Origin: Polytrichum commune
Lineage: Eukaryota > Streptophyta > Polytrichopsida > Polytrichales > Polytrichaceae
Assembly: GCA_950295325.1 (NCBI GenBank)
Contig: OX485804.1
Span: forward strand, 62,218,533-62,282,532
Direction: 5' to 3'
DNA: 64,000 nucleotides
The translations under genes were made by a program, and so were the position numbers. Shown piece by piece: positions 10,541 to 56,439 of the stretch (position 1 is the first letter of the stretch; every line of letters starts with the position of its first letter). Under the pieces are notes generated by a model, which worked only from the letters and a program-made list of their open reading frames with translations, ran no database searches and was not told the origin of the DNA.

Positions 10541-11517
10541 AAGGGTCAATTTAGACTACGGTGAAGAAGTCCACCGATCAGTCACAAATTTCAACCCAAT
10601 ACAAGGTTATTTGAGGCAACAATTGGTATGGCATACAATATGGGGGGAGGGGGGGACAAGAAAAAAAAAATCCTCAAGTTGGAGTTCTCCAGCCAAGTTT
10701 CTTCTTCAAGGGTTTGAAGTTGTCCAAGAAACTTGACCTATGAAGAACTCCCCATGCAAAAAACAATGTTGCCATGTTGACGTCCATGTCATTTTTTCGT
10801 CCATGTCATTTTTCATCCATGTCCTTTTCTCATCCAAAGAAGTCTTGGCCGTAGTGTTAACTTTGGCTTGTGAAAAAATCCATTTTGCAGCCAAACATAA
10901 CACTTCATTCCCCTAAATTTCTAAATTGGTGCACTTCTTCACCAAACTTTCCTTTGATCACACCAAACTTTTAGTCCAGTTCCAGCCGTGAAATTGATGA
11001 GGATTATGTTCAGAAATAGATGTTGGCCCACCACTTTTCACACTATTACAGCCGGAGATGCCAACGGATGATGTCTGAACTGGCCGGTGTGATCAGTAGT
11101 GCCCTTTGTGTGTTGTTCAAACGCATGAGAAACAAATAATCTAATTTAGTCTCATTGCAAGGCTGGTAAAAGAGGGGGGGGGGGGTGTCACAGAATCAAG
11201 GATAAAGAAGCACAATGTGATTGGGCAAGAGTGATGATGATGATGCTGTTCAGGGTATTTAGAGACCGTAAAGAAAGGCTGAGGATAAGTGCGGATAAGC
11301 GTAAAACCACCTGACAAAGCACAATTGACTAGTTTGTAATCTTTTAATAGAGCTACAATTTTTTTACGTGTTTCTTGGGCAACATGGTGGCAAATTCGTG
11401 TGCATTCTTACCGCCAACCTAACTTAACTTACTACATGTTCTCTCAAATTACATGGAAACTGGATTCTGTGGCCTCAGGTAAATAAATGTTCACATCACT
11501 TAAGGGAGAGGGGGCTG
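10541..11517. other. no gene seen; short homopolymers
   Basis: Contains G runs near 10642-10655 and 11174-11187 and a small repeat of GTCCATGTCATTTTTC (about 10781-10815, two copies). No recognisable domain. Confidence 0.45.
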
Positions 11518-11600
11518 GGGCGAACCAACCTGTACATTGGTTACTTGGAGGCAAGGGTTTAGGCATCCAACAAGGAACGAGTGTATGGGTTGGTTCGCCC
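11518..11600. mobile_element. 83-bp near-palindromic mini-element, single copy
   Basis: Starts GGGCGAACCAACC and ends GGTTGGTTCGCCC, so the outer 13 bases are perfect inverted repeats, and imperfect pairing continues inward to about 28 bp. The core has GGAGGCAAGGGTTTAGGCAT. The same unit, reverse-complemented, makes the 103-bp array at 39381-40086, and a near-identical single copy sits at 35500-35582. No target duplication is obvious. It is non-coding. Confidence 0.85.
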
Positions 11601-11686: not shown

Positions 11687-12176
11687 TAACATTAGGGCCA
11701 CTTCACACATGAGATAGAGAGCCCGTGACCAGTAGTTCAAGCACTCTCATTGGTGGAAAAGGCGGAGCCAGTTCAAGTTCGCTTCACACTACGGTTGAGG
11801 GACCAACGGAGTGTGTGAATGTAAGATGGATGTAAAAGTCTACGTGGATTCCTACATGGCATCAAATGGATCGTGTCAAATGGTCACTTAACCTAGTTTC
11901 AAAAACACAAAACCAGGAGACCATGGCACACCGAACGCTCACAACCGTTGATTAATTCTATTTTATCATGCGTGAGGACCCCCGTGAATAGAAATTCATT
12001 GAGATAGCATTTGGTAGGGGCCCGGTCACATATGACTTCACACTACACTTGAGGGTCCGTGACCACACTGCATGATTTTGGAGGTGCTTTGGGATGGCCT
12101 TTGGACAATTTCTTTTGGGCTCTCACAATTCCACGGTCACAACTCTTGGCTCATGTGTGAAGTGGCCCTAACATTA
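11687..12176. mobile_element. non-autonomous DNA transposon family D, copy 1, with 8-bp target duplication
   Basis: Element proper is 11695-12168 (474 bp). Its terminal inverted repeats start GGGCCACTTCACACATGAG, perfect over 19 bases. It is flanked on both sides by TAACATTA (11687-11694 and 12169-12176). An 8-bp duplication fits the hAT superfamily; the ends are not a textbook hAT CAGNG, so hAT is inference. Internal direct repeats of the phrase ACTTCACACTACRSTTGAGG lie about 200 bp apart, a possible transposase-binding subterminal repeat. No coding capacity. Copies lie at 25651-26068, 40411-40908 and 50910-51402. Confidence 0.85.
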
Positions 12177-25405: not shown

Positions 25406-25530
25406 ATGAAGTGCAGTCGGTTTCATGTGGTTTAAACCGACTCCACAATGTCATTTAGCCCCCGAAGTGCTGGTAAAACCGTTTTTTGTTGTTGTTCTTT
25501 CCCAAGGGGGGCTTGAGTAACATCGGATTT

Positions 25531-25600
25531 GGGCGAACCAGCCCATGTTGGATGTCTAAGCCTTTGCCTCCAAGGAACGAGTGTACGGGTTGTTTCGCCC
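25531..25600. mobile_element. mini-element (GGGCGAACC family), 70-bp internally deleted copy
   Basis: Starts GGGCGAACCAGCCC and ends TTTCGCCC. The core TTGCCTCCAAGGAACGAGTG is kept; about 13 bases near the left arm are missing. It lies about 50 bp before family D copy 2. Confidence 0.75.
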
Positions 25601-25650
25601 CAGTTGTAACATTGCTCGCTAGTTGGGTATTTGCTATGGAGTGTTGCCAG

Positions 25651-26068
25651 GTTCACTTCACGCTACGCTTGAGGGACCAAAGGAGTATGTGAATGCAAGA
25701 TGGATGTAAAGTCGACATGGATTCCTACATGACATTGAATGGACCATGTTTCATGGTCACTCGGACTGTTTTCAAAAACCACCTCCTGGAGGTAGGCCTA
25801 ACTCAAAACCGGGAGACCATGGCACTTCGAATGCTCACAACCGTAGATTTATTCTATTTTACCATGCGTGAGGACCTACATGAATAAAAATTCATTGAAA
25901 TAGCATTGGGTGGAGGGTCCAGTCACACATGACTTCACACTACACTTGAGGATCTGTGACCACACTACATGATTTTGGAGGTGTGTTGGGACGGCCTTTG
26001 GACGCTTTCTTTTTGGGGTCTCATAATTTCATGGTCACGGCTCTTGGCTCGTGTGTGAAGTGACACCT
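25651..26068. mobile_element. family D non-autonomous transposon, copy 2, 5'-truncated
   Basis: Begins inside the element (GTTCACTTCACGCTACGCTT) and runs to an eroded right end GTGTGTGAAGTGACACC. It is collinear with the other three copies but the left terminus is lost, so no target duplication can be read. Confidence 0.8.
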
Positions 26069-26629
26069 ATGGCCACTTCTTCACGCCCACGGCACTCCAA
26101 GCTTCTTGTCAAAAGTAACCGGCTTGAGCATGGTCTTTTAGCATGATGTGACCTATGTTTGTGGTGGTTTGCCTGAAAATAAGGATGGAATTTAGGCCAA
26201 TACGGTTGGCCACTGACTATCCACGGAGCCAATGTTGGACTTTTCCATGATGAAATGAGTCTTTTCATGAGGCTCCATGCATTGCAAGGCAGATTGTAGT
26301 TGATTGGAATGGCCTCTTTTCCTCCCTAAAAGCCAGCATTAGATTCTAGATATGATATGAAATTCGTATTCATGCATAAGCTAGATGGCAATCAAATTGA
26401 GGCACATGTGAGCGGACGATGTTTGTGCCCTATTTGGCAGCCATAGATCCATTAATTTTTTTAATGAATTCAAGGATGTTCAGTCCTCAAATTTCAAGGC
26501 CCACGTGCCCCAACCTAACCTTCACATCAATGCGGTTGGACATGTGAGTAAGGATGAGAGGTTGCAGTGAGTAAGTTGTGTTAGTTTCACCGTGTGGAGA
26601 GAGAGAGAGAACCTCTCACGCATCCAACA
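26069..26629. other. no feature seen
   Basis: Intergenic sequence with a short GA microsatellite at 26599-26610. Confidence 0.4.
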
Positions 26630-34960: not shown

Positions 34961-35499
34961 ATATGCTCACATGCTAAGTACAACAAAGTATGATTAGTCT
35001 TTCTTTCTTGCATAATCAAACATCAAATCTATTAATCTTTCTATATCTCAACTTCCAATGATAAAATTATGAGCATGATTATTATGAGGTCAACCCTCCG
35101 CCCTTCAACGATTAAGTATTAGCATGCATGATTCAATATGACTTCGACTTGTTAGGAGTGGTAGTAGTTTATGGATAACTCATGTGCCTACTTTGAATTC
35201 CAATCAACAAATTAAGAGCACTACTATGATTTGTATTTCAAGTTTGGAAGAGAGGAGCATTGGCTATAATGATTGGAGTGACAAAGGTTGCGTATAGATG
35301 ATTATATAAACTCTCATCCAAATGTATACACATTGATCCAAAAGTTGGAAATCTCATCCAATTTGTATGATCTTTAGGGATAATTCTAACTATTTCATCT
35401 CAAAAATCATAGAATAATCATGAAACTATTCTTTTGTCAATTTTTAGAATCGTAAATCACAAGCACATAGCTGGACTCAATGACACTAGAACACGGCTA
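34961..35499. other. repeat family J copy 2 (35130-35300); otherwise nothing
   Basis: 35130-35300 repeats GACTTCGACTTGT, GTGCCTACTTTGAATTCCAAT and AAATTAAGAGCAC of family J. The rest is unassigned. Confidence 0.45.
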
Positions 35500-35582
35500 G
35501 GGCGAACCAACCTGTACACTGGTTCCTTGGAGGCAAGGGTTTAGGCATCCAGCAAGGAACGAGTGTATGGGTAGGTTCGCCC
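35500..35582. mobile_element. 83-bp near-palindromic mini-element, single copy
   Basis: GGGCGAACCAACC at the left and GTAGGTTCGCCC at the right, same length and core as 11518-11600. Outside it, CACTAGAACACG (left) and CACTGGAGCACG (right) are similar. They could be an imperfect duplication or a chance effect of family J sequence. Confidence 0.85.
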
Positions 35583-35892
35583 AAATCACTGGAGCACGAA
35601 GAAGCCTTGTATTGAGTGACATGATCACAATCTTGAAAAGAATTAGGTCACGAAGACGGGATTTTCATTAAGAAAAATTCCCTCAAATTCAACCATGATT
35701 TGTAACTTCCATGTTTCAGCCAATCAAGTCCAAGTTCCTAGAAAGCAATGAACCTCATTGTTGAAATCATGGTTTCATTTTGAAGAGGCAAATGTGTTCT
35801 TAAAATGGTACAATTTTGGCAACTGATGATAACATTCCTTAAATTTCAAATCATACTTTTATGATAAATATTTAGAATGACATCAACCTCCA

Positions 35893-39380: not shown

Positions 39381-40086
39381 CCATTGGTGAAGATTTGGAC
39401 TCCTTCCTTGTTGGATGCCTAAACCCTTGCCTCCAAGGAATCAGTGTATGGGTTGGTTCACCCCAACCCATTGGTGAGGATTTGGGCGAACCAACCCACA
39501 CACTCGTTCCTTGGAAGATGCCTCAACCCTTGCCTCCACAGAACCAATGTACGGGTTGGTTCACCCCAGCCCATTGATGAGGATTTAGGCGAACCAACCC
39601 ACACACTCGCTCCTTATTGGATGCCTAAACCCTTGCCTCCAAGGAACCAGTGCACGGGTTGGTTCATCCCAACCCATTAGTGAGGATTTGGGCGAACCAA
39701 CCCACACACTCGTTCCTTATTGGATGCCTAAACCCTTGCCTCCAAGGAACCAGTGTACGGGTTGGTTCACCCCAACCCATTAGTGAGGATTTGGGCGAAC
39801 CGACCCACACACTCGTTCCTTATTGGATGCCTAAACCCTTGCCTCCAAGGAACCAATGTACGGGTTGGTTCTCCTCAACCCATTGGTGAGGATTTGGGCG
39901 AACCAACCCATACACTCGTTCCTCGTTGGATGCCTAAACGCTTGCCTGCAAGGAACCGATGTATAGGTTGATTCACCCCAGCCCATTGGCGAGGATTTGG
40001 GTGAACCAACCCATATACTCGTTCCTTGTTGGATGCCTAAACCCTTGCCTCCAAAGAACCAATGTACGGGTCGGTTCGTCCCAGCC
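39381..40086 (+). repeat. satellite-like array of the mini-element, exact 103-bp period, about 6.8 units
   Basis: Unit starts (GGGCGAACC or one-base variants) fall at 39484, 39587, 39690, 39793, 39896 and 39999, each exactly 103 bp apart. A truncated first unit starts near 39381. Each unit is the 83-bp mini-element plus a 20-bp spacer like AACCCATTGGTGAGGATTT. Because 103 is not a multiple of 3, the same sequence is read in rotating frames, producing several repetitive but meaningless open frames. Unit-to-unit identity is about 90 percent. Confidence 0.95.
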
Positions 40087-40410
40087 GTAGCCATTGGGGA
40101 GTGGGCGATCCCATTGCATGTGGATTTTAACCGAGGCTTTGGGGTTGTGAGGAGGGATGCCACTAGGAACACCGGGCATAAATGAAGGGCGGCTGGGCCC
40201 AGAGGGATCCAAGGAAACGGGATTTCCCTCGCACATAAGTTAACATATTGGATGGTATGCATGCTTTCGAGTGGAATTTTCTTTGCTTAAAAAAAGGCCG
40301 GCCAATGGCCATGTTTGGCGTCGGCTAGCAGTCAAGCATGCATTAAAAAGGAAGGTCCCACCCGCAAGCAAGCTTTGATGATTTGTGGGTCTTGTTTTCA
40401 TCTGACTCAT
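40087..40410. other. no gene recognised
   Basis: GC-richer than the neighbourhood (about 40085-40230). Frames on both strands overlap the array edge. No motif. Confidence 0.4.
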
Positions 40411-40908
40411 GGGCACTTCACACACGAGACCGAGAGCCCGTGACCATTCCACTTCAACCACTCTCATTGGTGGAAAAGGCGGAGCCCGTCCAAGTTCGCT
40501 TCCCACTACGCTTGAGGGACCACCGGAGTATGTGAATGCGAGATGGATGTAAAGCTTACATGGGTTCCTACATGGCATTGAATGGATCGGGTTTTATGGT
40601 CATTTGGACTATTTTCAAAAACCACCTCTTGGGAGGTAGGCCTAGCACAAAATTGGGAGACCATGGCACTCCGAACGCTCACAACCATTGGTTTATTCTA
40701 TTTTAACATGCGTGAAGACCCGCATGGAGAGATATTCATTGAAACAACATTTGGTTGAGGGCCTGGTCACATATGACTTCACACTACACTTGAGGGTCCG
40801 TGACACACTACATGAGTTTGGAGGTGTGTTGGGACGGCCTTTGGACGCTTTCTTTTGGGCTCTCACAATTTCATGGTCACGGCTCTTGGCTCGTGTGTGA
40901 AGTGGCCC
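40411..40908. mobile_element. family D non-autonomous transposon, copy 3
   Basis: 498 bp, with ends GGGCACTTCACACACGAG (one C lost) and CTCGTGTGTGAAGTGGCCC. Flanks TGACTCAT (left) and TAACTCAA (right) agree at 6 of 8 positions, compatible with a decayed 8-bp duplication. Confidence 0.85.
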
Positions 40909-40937
40909 TAACTCAACTTCTTGGGGTCCAGCCGCAT

Positions 40938-50909: not shown

Positions 50910-51402
50910 GGGCCACTTCACAAATGAGACCGAGTACTTTTCAAGCACTCTCATTGGTGGAAAAGGCGGAGCCGGTCCAAGTTCGCTACTTCACACTACG
51001 CTTGAGGGACCAACGGAGTGAGTATGTGAATGCGTGATGGATGTAAAGTCTACATGGATTCCTACATGGCATCAAATGGATCATGTTTCATGGTCACTTG
51101 GACTGTTTTCAAAAATCAACTCTTTGAGGTAGGCCTAACACAAAACCAAGAGAGCATGACACTCTGAACACTCAAAATTATTGATTTATTCTATGTTATC
51201 ATGTGTGAGGATCCGCATGAATAGAGATTCGTTGAAATAGCATTTGGTTGAGGGCCTGGGTATATATGACTTCACACTACACTTGAGGGTCCGTGACCAC
51301 ACTACATAAATTTGGAGGTGGCTTGGGATGGTATTTGGACACTTTCATTTGGGCTCTCACAATTTCATGGTCACGGCTCTTGGGTCGTGTGCGGAGTGGC
51401 CC
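50910..51402. mobile_element. family D non-autonomous transposon, copy 4
   Basis: 493 bp from GGGCCACTTCACAAATGAG to GTGTGCGGAGTGGCCC. The flanks (TGGGTTTA left, TTACATTA right) do not match, so one side has been replaced or eroded. It is the only copy without a mini-element upstream. Confidence 0.82.
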
Positions 51403-51990
51403 TTACATTAGGGGCCAAATCCAAGACACTTGTGGTGCAAGACGCCCCTTTGTGGACCTTGTTTTTGGATTCACAAATGCTAAACCAAGAACTTGAGGAT
51501 TTATTTCTCAAACTAGAACAAACATTTGTGTTGTCGTCATTTTTCTTCATCGGACATGTGTATTTGATTGGTGTGTGGTTGGTGAGGATCAAAGAACAAA
51601 CATCATAAAGATACATGTTTAAAAGCCATTGGGTTGCCCTTCAAAATTTTACAAATTGTTCCAAATTCAATAGCGAACAAGATTGGGAGAACCTTTGTAT
51701 TCATGTAAGGAATCAACAAACATGGACTTCCGAGAATTATTACTAAACTAGGGGAGGTATTGTTTTCAACATGCATTTTGTTTACGCTTCACTGTAAATT
51801 TTCGAATGCAACACAAGTTTCATTTTCATTATGTAATTCTTATCGGAGAAGTTGAAAAAATTCAAAATAAAATTTGATTAACACCCACATATTAGGTTGA
51901 GCAACCAATCTTTGAGTTTGGGTCCAATTTTGAGCCTCAAAACAAAGTCCATGAAGGGGCGTTTTGAACCCCAAGTTTCTTGATTCCGGA
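51403..51990 (-). repeat. dispersed repeat family B, copy 4 (reverse), with unassigned flanks
   Basis: Core at 51550-51770. In reverse it reads AACATGTATCTTTATGATGT, GATCCTCACCAACCACACAC and CCAATCAAATACAC. It sits between family D copy 4 and family E copy 3. Confidence 0.6.
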
Positions 51991-55284: not shown

Positions 55285-56439
55285 TATGTGGTCAGGGGTG
55301 TTTTTTCACAAGGTCCCTAACATGTCTAGGGACATGTTCATAAAAAAAAAAACATTTCCAGTGGACGGGTTCTTAGAAAATGAACCCGTTTTGGGACGTG
55401 TCAAATTCACTTTGGACGGGTTCTAAAAATAACATTTTAAAAAATTAATCGGAATCGTGATGGGGGTTGAGACTTGAACCTGCAAAATCAATCCAACTAA
55501 TAAATAGACAACGCTTGCACTATCCTTGCAAAGACAACGCTTCCACCATCTTAGGCACATGTAAGGCTCAAATATCTACTCATACATTGACCCAACAACT
55601 TACAAGCTCAACCCTGCAATTTGCTAGGGTTTAACTCGAATTAACAGAAATTTCCTGCACAACCCTCGAATCTGCACTCAACCCACAACAAAAGAGAGGA
55701 ATAAGACTCTCAAGATTTAGGATGCTAATGAATCGAACATATGCAACTGAAAGCTAAAACAACTGAGAGACCGGTGAGAGATAACTTGATTGCAGTCGTC
55801 AAATGAACCGGTTGAGTTTGAGAAAACACCTGTTGAAGTTCAAGATTGCAGGAGAAGATTGTTCCAGCGGCACTCTTCAACTTCTTGAATTCGAGTTAGT
55901 TTCAAATGAACTGGTTGAGTTTGAGAAAATACCTGTTGAAGTTCAAGATTGCAGGAGGAGATTGTTCCAGCGGCACTCTCCAACTTCTTGAATTCGAGTT
56001 AGTTTCAAATGAACCGGTTGAGTTTGAGTGATTGAGTTTGAGTGACTGAGTCTAGTTCAGTTTCTCTGAACTAGTCTGTGGACAAACAGACAAAATGGGG
56101 CAGTGGCAGGCTGGCAAATTGGTAATTATAATAGAAAAAGCATAAATGAACGAAGATAGTAAGATACTATTGTTTCCAAGTGGCAAGTGCACCAATCACA
56201 TGCCGACATCTTTCGGGTTATCTTTATCGATTTGTTTTTTCCTTTAACCTTTTCATGGACGGGTTGGTTTAGAAATTACCGGTTTTGGGACGGGTTGTTT
56301 TTTCTTCAACCTTTCCATGGACGGGTTGGTTTTGAAATTACCGGTTTTGGGACGGGTTGCAATTTTTTTTGCCTTTCAATTCGAGGTTTTGGGACGTGGA
56401 CGGGTAAAAACTTTGTGAAAAAACAGCCCTGTATGTGGT
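55285..56439. mobile_element. hAT non-autonomous element, 1139 bp, with perfect 8-bp target duplication
   Basis: Element 55293-56431. The left end is CAGGGGTGTTTTTTCACAAG and the right end, reverse-complemented, CAGGGCTGTTTTTTCACAAA. TATGTGGT flanks both sides (55285-55292 and 56432-56439). CAGGG ends with an 8-bp duplication are the hAT hallmark. Subterminal GGACGGGTT motifs occur at least seven times, two near the left end and the rest near the right; the right-hand set includes a 62-bp tandem (from 56254 and 56316) with ACCGGTTTTGGGACGGGTTG. No transposase remains. The interior (about 55440-56150) may be captured sequence and contains a 103-bp tandem duplication. The intact duplication suggests a relatively recent insertion. 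Confidence 0.92.
55800..56035 (+). repeat. 103-bp tandem duplication inside the hAT element
   Basis: CAAATGAACCGGTTGAGTTT starts at 55800, 55903 (one change) and 56006, exactly 103 bp apart. Two full units and a partial third, about 96 percent identical. A frame of 62 codons through it repeats itself with a shift, so I treat it as non-coding. Confidence 0.92.

Follow-up and report, generated by a model that had tools for sequence, protein, structure and literature searches.

Among the closest described systems, CMITE of corals consists of full-size MITEs of ~100 bp in tandem arrays, for which replication slippage was proposed (PMC2872659). The arrays described here likewise contain full-size MITEs, with spacers that are alike within an array; CMITE differs in being of the piggyBac type with a TTAA TSD and in having been found in shotgun reads, and in the cited passages of that paper the spacer is not equated with the TSD of the array. 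In the model that McGurk and Barbash (2018; via PMC12628747 and PMC9659126) put forward for P and hobo of Drosophila, that of double insertion, element-TSD-element junctions seed a satellite, as they may do here, whereas in the present case duplication of one insertion is favoured and the arrays are made of a 93-bp non-coding element. According to the review PMC9659126, recombination or microhomology between TSDs can tandemly duplicate an element, and MITE-derived satellites are listed there, D1100 of rye among them; the passages used from it describe no family in which many arrays each have their own TSD as spacer. In Drosophila virilis, a satellite stems from the Mutator-type Tetris/TIR-220 (PMC4079207). 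Like the present element, Tetris is non-autonomous, was assigned to Mutator partly by the length of its TSD, 8-10 bp being taken as a clue, and gave rise to tandem arrays, and in the cited part of that report no autonomous partner was found (here, at 12 inspected MULE loci). In Tetris, however, an internal repeat of the long TIR was amplified to kb arrays, while here the amplified unit was in most cases the entire short element together with its TSD. In Atlantic cod, tandem repeats of a hAT-derived MITE were reported at inversion breakpoints (PMC12368964); these are also tandem MITE units, of 167-169 bp in arrays of a few kb, but of the hAT type and, at pairs of breakpoints on two chromosomes, with units that are inverted and nested, as far as the cited passages go. 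Xstir and miDNA4 of Xenopus are MITE-derived tandem repeats (review PMC12628747) that likewise ride on a MITE, but there, in the part of the review cited, the repeats come from the interior of the MITE, which is comparable only to our loci L037, L039, L040, L042, L078 and L085-L087.

The array investigated here is a well-formed conversion of a transposon into a tandem array, a variant of a kind of event already described. The accessible passages of the open-licence literature yielded no short family with many separate TSD-tagged array births and seemingly re-mobilised arrays, which is no proof of absence. The origin of a satellite is usually argued from one old array. In this genome, one 93-bp family offers 25 classed array starts (25 of 35 loci), many of them tagged by their own spacer, and single copies coexist with dimers and with arrays reaching 11-14 units, so that possible beginnings of satellite-like DNA can be seen several times over. 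The first step thereby becomes testable, including the choice of short repeats, the frequency of their use and any role of hairpins.

The genome searched comprised 408 Mb in 64 contigs, seven of them of 42-78 Mb; the window, the whole stretch of 64,000 nucleotides that was analysed, corresponds to G000:C2:62218533-62282532. A head-to-tail array of seven element copies with a 103-bp period was located at window positions 39382-40101. Tandem Repeats Finder reported positions 39399-40077 with period 103, 6.6 copies, 89% matches, 0% indels and a score of 1071, and a direct-repeat search gave five consecutive spacings of 103 bp, so that the head-to-tail repetition at 103 bp given in a preliminary description from the sequence was confirmed. 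All features of the array lie on the forward strand. The first copy (copy 1, 39392-39468), which has lost 16 bp internally close to its 5′ end, is followed by six full copies of 93 bp (copies 2 to 7: 39479-39571, 39582-39674, 39685-39777, 39788-39880, 39891-39983 and 39994-40086). The first 10-bp spacer, a TSD copy, reads CATTGGTGAG (39469-39478), and similar spacers occupy 39572-39581, 39675-39684, 39778-39787, 39881-39890 and 39984-39993. By eye, a left TSD copy, CATTGGTGAA (39382-39391), and a right TSD copy, CATTGGGGAG (40092-40101), each agree with the inner spacer at 9/10 positions. Directly before the right copy stands GTAGC (40087-40091), a pentamer also present ahead of the left copy; because GTAGC displaces the TSD, the automatic flank comparison scored the right side of the array at 3.3 of 9. 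Copy 4 is the one to which most of the best-scoring single copies aligned, and its single-strand DNA fold was computed at -25.5 kcal/mol (z -7.1).

Mean divergence was 11.3% among the units of the window array and 7.6% from their consensus; single copies diverged from the consensus by 3.6%, but these had mostly been picked for exact cores. Transitions prevailed (40 vs 8 transversions) and G>A was the most frequent change, an excess that would fit methylated repeats. Length had been thought to be preserved while bases drift. This holds for the full units, which are all 93 bp long, but not for the first unit with its 16-bp deletion, nor for other arrays of the family, which vary in length. Since the first unit and the other arrays show such changes, no special cause is needed for the constant period, and a special length constraint on 103 bp was rejected.

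For the TSD profile, 52 single copies were used (L020 was left out, its flanks being near-identical to those of L019), of which 50 could be aligned at both ends. Agreement between left and right flanks was 60-74% across precisely 10 positions and 6-34% beyond them, and the base after position 93 was unconstrained (C in 28 copies, T in 9, G in 8 and A in 5). The element is therefore 93 bp long and its TSD 10 bp. The 103-bp unit is thus the element plus one TSD copy (93 + 10), and not an 83-bp unit with a 20-bp spacer as previously proposed. In an earlier count, made with a 9-bp window, a 2-bp jitter and L020 included, flank repeats matched at 8 or 9 of 9 bp in 39 of 53 single copies, compared with 0.44% of mismatched flank pairs, and at least 7 of 9 bp matched in 47 of 53, compared with 3.7%.

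After five imperfect terminal bases, 28 of 30 bases agree between the inverted repeats. The TIRs (GGGCGAACCAACCC) measure ~30-35 bp and the two arms make up about two thirds of the 93-bp element, which as a single strand was predicted to fold into a hairpin (-30.6 kcal/mol, z -8.6). Fold-back elements, the class first suggested, consist for the most part of very long inverted repeats and often contain internal tandem repeats. This class was ruled out by the ~30-35 bp TIRs and by the lack of an internal tandem repeat in the single copies printed. The element is short, non-coding, of uniform length and present in many copies, carries TIRs and a TSD of fixed length and is too small to encode a transposase, all features of MITEs, and judged by its sequence it is a MITE-like non-autonomous DNA transposon. 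Mutator-like (MULE) transposons have TSDs of about 9-11 bp, which the 10-bp TSD fits. Together with the inverted repeats, this length suggests that the element is of Mutator type and was probably moved by a Mutator-type transposase. Scoring 150 of 271 candidates gave 142 MULE-domain matches. At 12 of these, inspected with ~4 kb on each side, no TIR matching that of the element was found; the best partial match at these 12 loci was 24 bp long (L094; E 0.11, not significant).

Three single copies occur elsewhere in the window. One, on the reverse strand at 11513-11600, is ~5 bp short at its 5′ end and 92% identical to unit 4; one with an internal deletion lies on the forward strand at 25526-25603, flanked by GTAACATCG and GTAACATTG; and one lies on the reverse strand at 35495-35587, flanked by GTGCTCCAGT and GTGTTCTAGT. 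Flank repeats were recognisable in two of the three, and the 5′-truncated copy had no clear TSD. Two of the three were also found within 100 bp of a second dispersed repeat family of ~430-510 bp, which has four copies in the window (11696-12172, 25647-26081, 40411-40922 and 50940-51406). The phrase CACTTCACACACGAG of that family recurs in a 179-bp tandem repeat at L078.

A genome search with the window array gave 76 matches from the best 40 of 1,778 candidates, and many of them were single copies of ~92-99 bp that started and stopped at the same place of the query. Single copies were sampled as a set of twenty (L017-L036) and a set of 33 (L044-L076), the latter hand-picked on contig C1 from a list of 100 exact core matches and hence biased toward young, unmutated cores. 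A 30-base core matched the genome 1,516 times at no more than 3 mismatches, array units included, and its reversed control 0 times. Scans for pairs of neighbouring copies, which needed near-intact cores, covered periods of 45-75, 90-120, 120-150 and 150-180 bp; chance and unrelated rows were removed by eye (5 of 53 in the 90-120 bp scan), and 31 loci with the element were obtained. An unrelated tandem array with a ~75-bp unit (G000:C5:4371168-4371679) was also caught by these scans. Four further loci known from the array search (L008, L013, L014 and L016) had been missed, so the scans are incomplete; in total, 35 tandem or clustered loci were laid out, scattered over all seven large contigs. 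The predicted balance of many dispersed copies and few arrays was therefore found, as far as scanned: 1,516 core matches, array units included, versus 35 loci. The longest arrays, L078 with 14 units (one full and 13 partial) and L002 with 11 units, measure about 1 kb. Within the periods scanned (45-75 and 90-180 bp, in assembled unmasked DNA), no array had the kb to Mb length of a classical satellite, and this term, used in the preliminary description, overstates the window array. The other part of that description, a dispersed mini-transposon amplified head-to-tail, was upheld, including the direction from element to array.

Array classes were assigned by reading the layouts of the 35 loci, and flanks and spacers were also compared automatically; flanks of different arrays reached 8 of 9 in 0.4% of 554 pairs. 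In six loci (class A) the spacer equals the TSD of the array itself. These are L001 (10 units, spacer AAGTTCTTG, automatic comparison on the left side), L002 (11 units, GTGATGAGGG, automatic comparison), L007 (4 units, TACCGGGGTG, automatic comparison), L015 (3 units, CACGGCTTA, by eye), the window array (by eye, left 9/10 and right 9/10 displaced by GTAGC) and L003, in which seven units with spacers of 12-14 bp are nested in another element copy (by eye; automatic comparison 3-4 of 9). Eight loci (class B) have spacers with extra flanking DNA that was also found outside the array, backed by automatic comparison in L010, L014, L041, L084 and L088 and mainly by eye in L004, L080 and L083. In three loci (class C) the whole array is bounded by a 10-bp outer duplication unlike the inner spacers (L005 and L082 by automatic comparison, L043 by eye). 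Tandem repeats of part of the element characterise another eight (class D: L037, L039, L040, L042, L078, L085, L086 and L087); the right half is repeated in seven of them, where the terminal AACCC and an internal AACCC could have paired. The other ten (L006, L008, L009, L011, L012, L013, L016, L038, L079 and L081) fall outside these classes and are mostly dimers or mixed clusters. Spacers differ between loci, indicating that the arrays began separately.

The element also inserts into itself: at L003, L038 and L066 its targets lie around AGGGTTTAGG within other copies, and at L003 and L038 several units then sit within the host copy. Gaps of 5 bp, half a TSD, were observed between neighbouring copies at L008, L009, L011, L012 and L013. 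An explanation of these 5-bp spacers as insertions into the end of the element, checked by eye, fitted L011 at 7/10 and failed at L008, L012 and L013.

The window array probably arose by tandem amplification, in place, of one 93-bp MITE-like insertion with its 10-bp TSD, and would thus go back to a single founder. Replication slippage or unequal exchange would have paired the two TSDs flanking the insertion, slippage being the likelier first step compared with crossing-over, so that the duplicated unit was the element with one TSD copy; later units would have been gained through unequal exchange between whole units. The hairpin of the element may have favoured the duplication by drawing both TSDs together in replication. 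Other members of the family probably went through this process independently, via the TSD or other short repeats. We conclude that single insertions were duplicated locally, in most cases by way of short direct repeats and above all of the TSD. Several observations speak against amplification in place: the GTAGC ahead of the right TSD copy is left unexplained, no variant absent from the single copies is common to all seven window units, five of these seven resemble a sampled single copy more closely than another unit, 10 of 24 arrays have no variant of their own, and ten of the 35 loci fall into no class. A genome search for the empty target site with the joined flanks of the window array matched its own locus only.

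Alternatively, later copies may have landed in the TSD of an earlier one, so that element-TSD-element junctions formed although the founder was not duplicated. Such repeated insertion predicts the same 10-bp spacer, and it would fit the dimers and several arrays that lack shared variants of their own as well as the window units, which are often closer to dispersed copies than to one another. Orientation argues against it. Head-to-tail neighbours at 90-120 bp were found in 48 rows from 19 loci, four of which are partial-element repeats (L037, L039, L040 and L042), whereas a genome scan restricted to tail-to-tail element pairs with comparable spacers of 5-35 bp yielded none, the sole match being unrelated. 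This argument is tempered by the statement in PMC12368964, in the part cited, that double insertions of class II elements are commonly head-to-tail. Inverted neighbours at wider spacing do occur at L007, L012, L038 and C6:28323075-28323578, and long palindromes may be lost. At the last of these sites, copies in both orientations carry a common TTGGAGG variant, and it is perhaps a further array.

Repeated insertion is also at odds with a 3-bp insertion present throughout the units of L002 (11 of 11 by eye, 10 of them matched at no more than 2 mismatches). The only other match at that threshold, C6:28323075, does not have the insertion; a dispersed copy at C1:68278875 (3 mismatches) reads GATGCTGCC at the same place and differs by one base, so the founder of L002 may have had a relative and the insertion is maybe not private. 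Among 24 arrays tested, 14 had variants that occurred in at least half of their units and were absent from the 52 single copies, compared with 0-0.03 such variants per random set of 3, 5, 7 or 10 single copies; the other ten had none. In five of the 14 (L002, L007, L008, L041 and L078) the variants lie only inside the core, which leaves nine, and the result is weaker than it looks because 33 of the single copies had been chosen for exact cores. The best such variant of the window array occurs in four of seven units and is also carried by L038. In a nearest-neighbour test, which is weak because the sampled single copies nearly match the consensus, a common origin was backed for L001 (10 of 10 units), L002 (8 of 11) and L003 (6 of 7), and was unsupported in the window array (2 of 7 units, the other five being closer to a sampled single copy) and in the dimers. 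Spacers that take in 20-116 bp of flank also speak against repeated insertion, which moreover cannot make tandem repeats of part of the element. As a general origin of the arrays it is unlikely, yet it may have supplied the first dimer at some loci, that of the window included.

Considerably less probable is rolling-circle copying of an excised circle of element and TSD, followed by re-integration of the concatemer. It also predicts units of element plus TSD, and it may be relevant to the three class C arrays, in which outer TSD and inner spacers are unlike. In class A, however, the spacer within the array and the flank outside it are the same, so that re-integration must have struck its own old site, and in the three exceptions the inner spacers are mostly 36-89 bp long (one of 12 bp in L005), longer than a TSD. 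That the single copies are remnants left by older arrays or by a true satellite, a case named in advance as refuting the direction from element to array, is scarcely credible: nothing was found in its favour, most sampled single copies carry their own TSD and are thus insertions rather than debris (at least 7 of 9 bp in 47 of 53, versus 3.7% in mismatched pairs), no two single loci other than L019 and L020 have the same printed flanks, and the four tandem-pair scans showed no long array. Just as implausible is spread of the array as an internal block of a larger transposon, since, although two of the three window single copies adjoin another repeat family (11696-12172 and 25647-26081) and sequence ~300 bp to the right and 400 bp to the left of the array recurs in the window, flanking sequence of ~75 bp on the left and ~110 bp on the right matched its own locus only, spacers and flanks differ from array to array, and a TSD bounds the window array.

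With local duplication of single insertions as the starting point, the class C loci allow a further, tentative reading, in which a MITE lands, a small array forms with the aid of its TSD, and the same transposase possibly moves whole arrays by their outermost inverted repeats, the moved arrays seeding array-ready units at new sites. Outer 10-bp duplications, read by eye, agreed at 10/10 in L005, 10/10 in L043 and 9/10 in L082, and did not match the inner spacers. Automatic comparison gave 9/9 for L005 and 8/9 for L082; the duplication of L043 is a by-eye reading, as the automatic score had mistaken a distant copy for the first unit. A genome search for a donor site of the inner spacers of L043 and L005 found these spacers in those arrays only. 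If whole arrays also transpose, the divide between dispersed and tandem repeats would be crossed in both directions.

Two other repeats were observed in the window. Positions 1713-2170 contain a 168-bp direct repeat, 100% identical at a spacing of 277 bp, and a 63-bp inverted repeat, also 100% identical, which looks very recent. At 55799-56028, an unrelated tandem repeat of 2.2 copies with 96% matches also has a period of 103 bp, which is a coincidence.
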